Positions 14,900 to 55,976 of a DNA stretch of 55,976 nt are shown here, in pieces. The notes under the pieces were generated by a model that searched no databases, had not been told where the DNA came from, and was given only the letters and a program-made list of their open reading frames with translations. Made by a program: the position numbers and the translations under genes. This DNA comes from Candidatus Azambacteria bacterium (lineage in GTDB: Bacteria; Patescibacteriota; Minisyncoccia; GWC2-36-17; WO2-46-25): the NCBI GenBank assembly GCA_016234725.1, contig JACRAK010000029.1, forward strand, positions 1 to 55,976. Direction: 5' to 3'. Positions within the stretch are counted from its first letter, which is position 1. Each line of letters starts with the position of its first letter.

Positions 14900-15073
14900 G
14901 CCAGCACCCGTTATTCTTTCTTTTATCTTAACGGAAGCCACGACTACACTATCGCTCCGCTGGACTGCTGTTTGTTGCCAATCGCTTCGCTCTTGGACAA
15001 ACAGGGAGCGCAGCCCTCCCATAATTATGATAAAAGGCGTGAGCGGATTAAAGAAAGAATGATGGATGCTGGC
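14900..15073. repeat. palindromic element F2a (arms GCCAGCACCCGTTATTCTTTC / GAAAGAATGATGGATGCTGGC) with a nested F3a insertion
   Basis: Conserved F2 blocks CTTAACGGAAG..GCAGCCC and AAGGCGTGAGCGGATTAAAG; about 71-bp insert at 14938-15008. Confidence 0.85.
14938..15008. repeat. F3a palindrome inserted inside F2a
   Basis: CCACGACTACACTATCGCTCCGCTGGACTGCTGTTTGTTGCCAATCGCTTCGCTCTTGGACAAACAGGGAG; absent from the other F2 copies. Confidence 0.85.
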
Positions 15074-22740: not shown

Positions 22741-22777
22741 AGTACCCGCATCATAGCGAAATACCGCGTATTATTCA

Positions 22778-22901
22778 ACCCGCCTAAATTTTTGCACTCA
22801 TGTGCACGATGCTGGCCACATATCTGCTCTGGTTCTAGTATTGCAACCGTATAAAACCGTTTGTTTAAAGAGCTACTTTTAGTGCAAAAACTTAGGCGGG
22901 T
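22778..22901. repeat. palindromic element F4a
   Basis: ACCCGCCTAAATTTTTGCACT ... AGTGCAAAAACTTAGGCGGGT, 20/21 match. Confidence 0.9.
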
Positions 22902-22980
22902 CAATCCCAAAAAATATGCCCGCTCCTCACTAATAAGGAAAAGGCGGCATATATAAGGAAATTCACCGCATGAAATTGGG

Positions 22981-23129: not shown

Positions 23130-23617
23130 ACGGGCATTCGGAGCAAACCGGTGAAGATGTACGTAAGCCGGATTCTGTTCCGCCAGCCGGAAAACCGGCC
23201 GGTCGGCGACGATCATTTCTCTTGTCACCGCATTACTGCGGTGATCATGCGACTACCTGCTTTCAAGGAAAGCATATTGTCTTGCACCCGACAAGGATTT
23301 GGCCGTTTCACCCCCGGTGTTGCCATCGGGGCTCGCCCTTGCTCGCTTGCGCGAGAAGGGCGCCTTCCGTCTTTCGTTGGAAAGCGTCTCTGTTCGCACC
23401 TCTAAGGTCGCCCTCGACGGCCGTTAGCCGCTGCCGTTGCCCGCCCAAATTTTTTATCTCTTGACTTTTTGTCGCGCATGCGCAAACGGCGTTTTTCGCG
23501 TTCGCAAAAAATAAAAAATTTGGGCGGGCGGGTGTCCGGACTTTCCTCTCCCCCGCGTTACCGCGTGAGAGCGATCGTCTGTGCATCTTAGCATCCCGGT
23601 TTGCTCCGGATGCCCGT
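23130..23617 (-). ncRNA. rnpB: RNase P RNA (bacterial type A-like), with an inserted palindrome
   Basis: Minus strand GAGGAAAGTCCGGAC near 5', GGTGAAACGGCCAAAT mid, GAACAGAATCCGGCTTACGTACATCTTCACC at 3'; ends close in a long P1-like stem. Confidence 0.93.
23439..23529. repeat. palindromic element F4b inside rnpB
   Basis: GCCCGCCCAAATTTTTTAT ... ATAAAAAATTTGGGCGGGC, perfect 19-bp IR, 91 bp total. Confidence 0.9.
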
Positions 23618-26157: not shown

Positions 26158-26272
26158 ACCACCGTCATTTTCAATTCTTTCTTTAATCCGTTCACGCTCT
26201 TGTATGTAAGGATCATTGAAGAGCTGCACTTCCGTTAAAATAAAAGAAAGAATTGAAAATGACGGTGGCATA
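26158..26272. repeat. palindromic element F2b (arms ACCGTCATTTTCAATTCTTTC / GAAAGAATTGAAAATGACGGT)
   Basis: Same internal blocks as other F2 copies but different, mutually complementary outer arms. Confidence 0.9.
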
Positions 26273-26990: not shown

Positions 26991-27108
26991 ATACAGTCGC
27001 TCCCTGCATTCTTTCTTTTATCTTAACGGAAGAGCAGCCCTTTCATATTATCTTATAAATAAAGGGCGTGAGCGGATTAAAGGAAGAATGCAGGGAGCAA
27101 CTGACTAT
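26991..27108. repeat. palindromic element F2c (arms CAGTCGCTCCCTGCATTC / GAATGCAGGGAGCAACTG)
   Basis: CTTTCTTTTATCTTAACGGAAGAGCAGCCCTTT...AAAGGGCGTGAGCGGATTAAAGGAAG. Confidence 0.9.
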
Positions 27109-33104: not shown

Positions 33105-33148
33105 CGCGCTTCTTTAATTCTTATCAATCGGTTTTACCTTCTCCGGTC

Positions 33149-33250
33149 ATTCTTAATTCTTTCTTACATCCGCTCACGCCCTTCTCTATAACAATTAATG
33201 AAGGGCTGCGCTTCCGTTAAGATTCCAGAAAAAATTAAGAATGACCGGGG
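33149..33250. repeat. palindromic element F2d (arms CCGGTCATTCTTAATTCTT / AAATTAAGAATGACCGG)
   Basis: ATCCGCTCACGCCCTT...GAAGGGCTGCGCTTCCGTTAAG blocks shared with F2a-c. Confidence 0.9.
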
Positions 33251-33274
33251 ATCGCCTTCGCAATCCAAAGAATT

Positions 33275-55544: not shown

Positions 55545-55689
55545 GAAACACGCACGGGCTGTAGTACCTGCCCGCCATAAGCCTAACACGTGGTCGCCAC
55601 GGTATTCGCCGGAATATATTACTCTGTACTCCTGTGTATTTCTCTGACAGGCGATTGGCAGGCGGGCAATGGCAGTACGCATGCACTTG

Positions 55690-55799
55690 CCCGCCCAAGT
55701 TTTTCATCGGGCCATCGTATAGTGGTAGTACGCAAGGCTGGGGGTCTTGTAGTCTGGGTTCGATTCCCAGTGGCCCGAAAGATAAAAACTTAGGCGGGT
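55690..55799. repeat. palindromic element F4c carrying a complete tRNA
   Basis: GCCCGCCCAAGTTTTTCATC ... GATAAAAACTTAGGCGGGT. Confidence 0.88.
55708..55778 (+). tRNA. tRNA-Pro(GGG)
   Basis: CGGGCCATCGTATAGTGGTAGTACGCAAGGCTGGGGGTCTTGTAGTCTGGGTTCGATTCCCAGTGGCCCGA. Confidence 0.93.
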
Positions 55800-55976
55800 G
55801 AAGGGTGCATGTAGTCCGAGTTCGATTCTCGGCATCCCGACCATTCAAGACAAGTCAAATTTTCGGAAGAGGTTGCCTCGGGGCTTCGCCCCTCGGCATC
55901 TCCGCGTCCCGCAAGGCGGGACGCGGTAAATCGCCACGGTTCGAAAAAATCCATTCGGACTTTCCGGTTGAGGAGA

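Follow-up and report, generated by a model that had tools for sequence, protein, structure and literature searches.

An F4-family palindrome at the J5/7 hairpin of an RNase P RNA gene in Candidatus Azambacteria, with relatives that encode a GIY-YIG nuclease

The DNA analyzed here, called the window, is a stretch of 55,976 nt from a Candidatus Azambacteria bacterium (contig JACRAK010000029.1, positions 1 to 55,976). The RNase P RNA gene rnpB at 23149-23590 is the sole match to Rfam family RF00010 in the 923-kb (~0.92-Mb) assembly of the window genome (G000). It was matched over the full length of the model (positions 1-367) with 111.3 bits and an E-value of 3e-33, the gathering cut-off being 100. 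The NrdD protein encoded next to rnpB shares 93% and 84% identity with proteins from two Ca. Azambacteria MAGs, which places the host among the Parcubacteria-type CPR bacteria. A palindrome lies within rnpB, and its arms belong to a dispersed repeat family that we call F4. The features referred to in the following are:

23149-23590, minus strand: rnpB, RNase P RNA class A (RF00010 match, single copy found)
23439-23529, minus strand: F4-family palindrome forming the J5/7 hairpin (repeat search, F4 end match, fold)
23511-23529, minus strand: 5′ arm in the RNA, GCCCGCCCAAATTTTTTAT (repeat search)
23439-23457, minus strand: 3′ arm in the RNA, ATAAAAAATTTGGGCGGGC (repeat search)
23458-23510, minus strand: 53-nt interior, poorly conserved compared with the arms and without an ORF of its own (alignment with congener G002)
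22775-22904, no strand assigned: intergenic F4 copy F4a, CCCGCC..GGCGGG at 22779-22900, direct repeat TCAA at 22775-22778 and 22901-22904
55689-55799, plus strand: F4c, with a complete tRNA-Pro(GGG) gene between its arms at 55707-55779 (tRNA call, end motif)
55557-55843, plus strand: interrupted outer tRNA-Pro-like sequence around F4c (by eye; the flanks match intact Pro tRNAs best)

The first-pass annotation had described a 91-nt palindrome with perfect 19-bp arms inside rnpB, and both this description and the minus-strand sequence quoted with it were confirmed by sequence readout and repeat search. On the minus strand, GAGGAAAGTCCGGACACCC is followed by the 91-nt palindrome at 23439-23529 and then by AACGGCAGCGGCTAACGGCCG. 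The outer 19 bp of the arms are perfect; the repeat search extended them to 25 nt at 92% identity (23439-23463 and 23505-23529). Transcribed into RNA, the palindrome has a folding energy of −46.8 kcal/mol (z = −7.0), and none of 200 shuffled sequences was equally stable. In the alignment to the class A model, which had been proposed as a check, rnpB is matched from end to end with its P-RNA core intact, and the palindrome appears as non-consensus sequence placed after the 5′ strand of P5. No group I or group II intron model matched in the window at Rfam gathering thresholds. No GIY-YIG ORF lies between the arms, the 53-nt interior being too short, and no target duplication is visible at the palindrome (flanks CCCG and CAAC). 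The interior resembles that of no other F4 copy, and BLAST with the 91-nt insert alone recovered little except its own arms, since F4 copies have only their ends in common.

The palindrome had initially been taken to extend a site at which bacterial P RNAs normally have only a few nucleotides. P RNAs of the E. coli type indeed have only a few nucleotides there, but this does not hold for the class to which the window genome belongs. Its rnpB genes carry a hairpin immediately 3′ of the 5′ strand of P5, between P5 and P7: 25 of 37 class loci have a perfectly paired stem of 7 bp or more that begins no further than 3 nt from P5, compared with 4% of shuffled segments. A looser test allowing 5-bp stems with one mismatch was passed by 90% of the shuffles and was discarded in favor of the stricter one. 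In two genomes from the order of the window genome, the J5/7 hairpin is short and lies between the same flanks (ACACC or ACTCC ... AACG). A J5/7 hairpin is thus native to the class, and the palindrome therefore replaced or swallowed an existing peripheral hairpin rather than opening a bare linker.

The arms of the palindrome are those of a repeat family dispersed through the genome. Both arms are the F4 end motif CCCGCCYAARNTTTTT in inverted orientation without mismatch, and this motif occurs, with at most one mismatch, 25 times in the window genome, compared with once for its reversed control. These half-sites form about 13 elements with the terminal inverted repeat (TIR) CCCGCCYAARTTTTT. The match of the palindrome's ends to F4a (22778-22901) and to the tRNA-bearing F4c (55689-55799), noticed at the outset, was borne out. 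F4 interiors are variable, although three intergenic copies are 72-86% alike throughout; F4a shares 86% and 76% interior identity with two other copies of the window genome. Directly outside CCCGCC..GGCGGG, the intergenic copies are flanked by the direct repeats TCAA, TTGA, TTGA, TATG, TATTG and a 3-bp TTG (partly read by eye). Such target duplications, mostly of 4 bp, are absent from the copies within RNA genes. No pair of end-motif half-sites in the window genome encloses a transposase-sized gene. Palindromes of another family, whose arms are ATTCTTTCTTTTATC-like, were also seen in the window at 26159-26268, 26994-27103, 14900-15073 and 33140-33251; one of them extends over the start of the ORF predicted as nrdG.

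Comparison with related genomes showed turnover at the P-RNA helices. Among four genomes of the family, comprising the window genome, two congeners (G001 and G002) and one member of a second genus (G003), J5/7 is filled by F4 (CCCGCCCAAATTTTTT) in G000 and G002, by CCCCTCACTTGG in G001 and by CYCTTTTGG in G003, and these repeat families are unrelated to one another. F4 itself forms the P3 helix of the G001 rnpB, while CCCCTCACTTGG forms J2/4 in G001 and G002 and is also inserted at P17 of G007; CCCCTCACATGG occupies the P9 region of rnpB in another class member (L177). Between G000 and G002, arm pairs 1-18 are identical, pair 19 is changed from T-A to G-C on both sides, and the interior has diverged. 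This compensatory change indicates that the helix was inherited and kept paired, and since G002 shares the F4 hairpin, the copy in rnpB is old rather than recent. As a side observation, four further rnpB genes (L241 in G089, L245 in G066, L257 in G086, L259 in G062) each contain two or three long perfect palindromes, and those within one gene often have arms of a single related family. Since rnpB loci of the class were sampled partly by length, palindrome counts should not be read as frequencies.

These comparisons bear on the proposal that the palindrome is an insertion, for which a native helix conserved with compensatory changes across the lineage had been named as the counter-evidence. Conservation was found for the position of the helix and, between G000 and G002, for one compensatory pair, but not for the sequence that fills it: order-wide, neither a shared J5/7 sequence nor compensatory variants of one were seen, and even congeners carry unrelated repeat families there. 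An origin by insertion still stands, because the helix is filled with repeat-family sequence; the dispersed F4 arms and the unrelated palindromes at the same site in congeners speak for it, whereas the short-linker setting has to be given up. In sum, the original interpretation is partly supported.

It had not extended to coding capacity, and relatives of the palindrome encode a GIY-YIG nuclease. In G001 (C35), an F4 palindrome with 19-bp arms (CCCGCCTAAATTTTTGTGC) adjoins tRNA-Gly and has an 87-aa GIY-YIG gene between its arms; in the window genome, an F4-like palindrome beside tRNA-Ala likewise encloses a GIY-YIG gene. These two, one exact-F4 and one F4-like, are the ORF-bearing copies found. 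In G003 (C24, L015 1921-2187), P3 of rnpB is itself a palindrome (CCCCGCCCTTTTGATG...) with an 88-aa GIY-YIG gene antisense to rnpB. Pfam GIY-YIG matches had E-values from 4.9e-17 to 7.3e-16, one of them being 5.7e-17.

We therefore analyzed 102 distinct GIY-YIG ORFs from the class sample, for which the best-scoring matches were taken first. An inverted repeat with a score of at least 13 frames 33 of the 91 genes not of UPF0213 type, none of the 11 UPF0213-type genes (the two types being separated, only roughly, by an HYT motif) and 0.3% of the null windows, which were drawn from the same loci. Thirty framed elements are 255-330 bp long. Target duplications were assessed by permutation in place of readings of single elements by eye: direct repeats of at least 4 bp flank 14 of the 30, compared with 6.6% of shuffled pairings. 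The repeats frame the ORF at a near-constant distance, with arm and ORF start within tens of bases of each other, despite belonging to many unrelated arm families. All 30 framed proteins fall into one group of 47 rows (94/88), and within it the two F4 proteins from G001 and G000 are sisters (99/89). At least 11 identical nucleotides are shared with arms of GIY-YIG elements by 7 of 26 rnpB palindromes, compared with 0 of 26 in the reversed control; in arm families other than F4 the exact sharing spans 11-13 nt. Between the rnpB arm of the window and the F4 element of G001 C35 (CCCGCCTAAATTTTTG), the exact run is 8 nt, or 14 of 15 nt with one mismatch. A preference for tRNA neighborhoods is not specific to the framed genes, as 5 of 30 framed and 18 of 72 unframed genes lie beside a tRNA.

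F4 copies were also found in tRNA genes; all genomes used are draft metagenome assemblies, in which nested repeats misassemble easily. F4c interrupts the anticodon loop of the outer Pro-like tRNA, whose D arm contains a second GCCCGCC..GGCGGGC segment at about 55570-55667. Altogether, F4 arms enclose complete tRNAs on contigs C10, C13, C18, C19 and C26 of G000 and on C21 of G003 (Glu, Trp, Val, Pro, Ala, Ile). Where an assignment could be made, the sequences on either side are halves of another tRNA of the enclosed kind, with near 100% matching of flank segments for Ala and Ile and weaker matching for Pro and Glu; no assignment was obtained for Trp and Val. One further F4 copy holds no tRNA and lies in the D loop of a Leu tRNA, which it splits. 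The idea that the outer tRNA is an intron-bearing gene restored by splicing is disfavored by the presence of intact tRNAs for Pro, Glu, Ala and Leu, either at other loci or as the enclosed copy, by extra damage in the outer copies, and by the lack of a bulge-helix-bulge pattern by eye. In tRNA genes, the element seems to be tolerated because it carries or restores a tRNA.

Further observations at tRNA loci are listed for completeness. Nests of a tRNA in a palindrome in a tRNA are seen at L112 2020-2200, L106 1890-2130, L107 760-960, L114 2040-2230 and L115 420-620, a set comprising Glu, Ala, Val and Trp in the window genome and Ile in G003. At L231, L262 and L296, GIY-YIG palindromes sit at the 5′ end of tRNA genes for Ala and Val; upstream, the first ~11 nt of the tRNA occur a second time, which looks as though the element restored the gene on entering it. 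A tRNA-Thr(GGT) at L157 672-957 (G000 C13:16171-16456) has a 212-nt insert in its anticodon loop according to ARAGORN, which by eye looks like a small group I intron. Among the tRNA loci fetched from G000, ARAGORN reported Lys(CTT) and no Lys(TTT), and two tRNA matches in this genome are weak (C13:60381, C21:13001).

Taken together, we consider the rnpB palindrome, with a probability of roughly three in four, to be a miniature, ORF-less F4-subfamily derivative of a GIY-YIG-encoding palindromic mobile element, situated at the native P5/P7 hairpin. It is called a derivative rather than a full member because a GIY-YIG ORF is absent between its arms. Against this reading count the missing target duplication at rnpB, the interior unlike that of other F4 copies and the shortness of the exact arm sharing; moreover, no empty rnpB allele of the window genome is known.

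A different origin would be that the native J5/7 helix was lengthened by ordinary RNA evolution and resembles F4 by convergence. The hairpin native to the class and the compensatory pair between G000 and G002 fit this, as do the large helix extensions described, together with missing helices, for CPR RNase P RNAs in an earlier study (PMC8172020, 2021). We nevertheless regard it as very improbable, since the arms match a family with 25 end motifs compared with one for the reversed control, F4 arms also fill P3 in G001, and the unrelated sequences at J5/7 of congeners are themselves dispersed repeats. It is also improbable, though less strikingly so, that a conventional TIR transposase, now absent or unseen, moves F4 as a MITE and that the GIY-YIG genes are unrelated homing genes which landed in some copies. 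An unseen transposase could mobilize F4 with the GIY-YIG gene as a passenger; the TIRs and ~4-bp duplications of F4 are like those of classical IS elements, and the ORF was found in only one exact-F4 and one F4-like copy. However, the near-constant framing of the ORF across unrelated arm families, the placement of the framed genes in one group and the lack of a transposase-sized gene between paired F4 end motifs argue against it.

How the hairpin fares in the transcript is a separate matter. Its removal from P RNA like an IVS or an intron, by RNase III excision without ligation or by splicing, is compatible with a mobile origin, and we assign it a minor but real chance. Long duplex stems are among the substrates of RNase III, and short non-intron inserts at known IVS sites have been described in CPR rRNA genes (PMC11270868). 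On the other hand, no intron family matched the insert at Rfam gathering thresholds, and at a helix position removal is unnecessary. Retention in the mature RNA is what we would expect.

For the origin as a derivative of a GIY-YIG-encoding element, the following course may be envisaged. Full elements of ~280-320 bp would consist of inverted repeats placed tightly around the gene for an ~87-aa GIY-YIG nuclease, which probably cuts target DNA. The element would be copied in by repair or by a transposition-like joining, leaving duplications of mostly 4-5 bp at intergenic sites. ORF-less short copies may move in trans or may remain after deletion, and the family as a whole may be actively mobile. 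Transcribed in either orientation, the palindrome would form a hairpin, in rnpB at the position of a peripheral P-RNA hairpin. It would be tolerated, with the catalytic core undisturbed, because the transcript re-forms a hairpin where a hairpin already belongs, and no splicing would be needed.

Mobile inserts in structured-RNA genes are a known kind of element, of which we take the rnpB palindrome to be a variant. 23S rRNA IVSs likewise form stems and sit at peripheral hairpins of an RNA that is essential, and some code for a protein, but they are cut out by RNase III and encode another protein family. MITEs and other TIR elements share with F4 the TIRs, 4-bp duplications, common ends and variable interiors; the ORF-bearing relatives of F4 differ in encoding a GIY-YIG nuclease and not a recognized transposase. 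The palindromic elements of Rickettsia resemble F4 in being dispersed and in lying within functional genes, likewise of a reduced genome. To our knowledge, none of them codes for a nuclease, and most known cases lie in protein genes. The first-pass annotation had listed rnpB among their targets; our literature search, conducted largely outside subscription journals, found no report linking them to rnpB, nor any on GIY-YIG elements framed by inverted repeats; on palindromic elements in rnpB and on GIY-YIG in CPR bacteria, it yielded just the articles cited here.

Closest to the present case are the insertion sequences of CPR rRNA genes (PMC11270868, 2024), notably those that encode GIY-YIG proteins and belong to neither group I nor group II introns. 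The insertion sequences agree with the elements reported here in radiation, in the invasion of structured-RNA genes, mostly at the top or base of stem-loops, and in that some encode GIY-YIG proteins while others are short and ORF-less. The article is confined to rRNA, and its main text contains none of the words tRNA, RNase P, palindrom- or inverted. The inverted-repeat architecture, the target duplications and the rnpB and tRNA targets are added here. The accessible text of PMC8172020 gives no origin for the helix extensions, some of which are traced here to dispersed palindromes; in the parts available, neither article links its inserts or extensions to palindromic repeats.

More broadly, the chances are about even that the elements represent an unrecognized class of transposable elements in this CPR class. 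Such an element would be ~300 bp long, with an ~87-aa GIY-YIG nuclease gene as its sole gene between inverted repeats, 4-5 bp target duplications and a frequent location in rnpB or tRNA genes. It would persist by keeping the RNA working, in P RNA as a hairpin and in tRNA genes through a tRNA of the matching kind that it carries or restores, and its ORF-less forms would serve as working RNase P helices. Judged by sequence comparison, related palindromes appear to have invaded rnpB and tRNA genes repeatedly across the class. An essential ribozyme appears to take mobile DNA repeatedly into its peripheral helices, with families swapped at the same helix among congeners. Three puzzles of CPR bacteria are connected in this way: the odd, enlarged RNase P RNAs, the occurrence of GIY-YIG genes in rRNA inserts that are not introns, and the small palindromic repeats. 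Should movement be driven by the GIY-YIG protein, these elements would be among the smallest self-contained mobile elements and would constitute a nuclease system aimed at structured-RNA genes.
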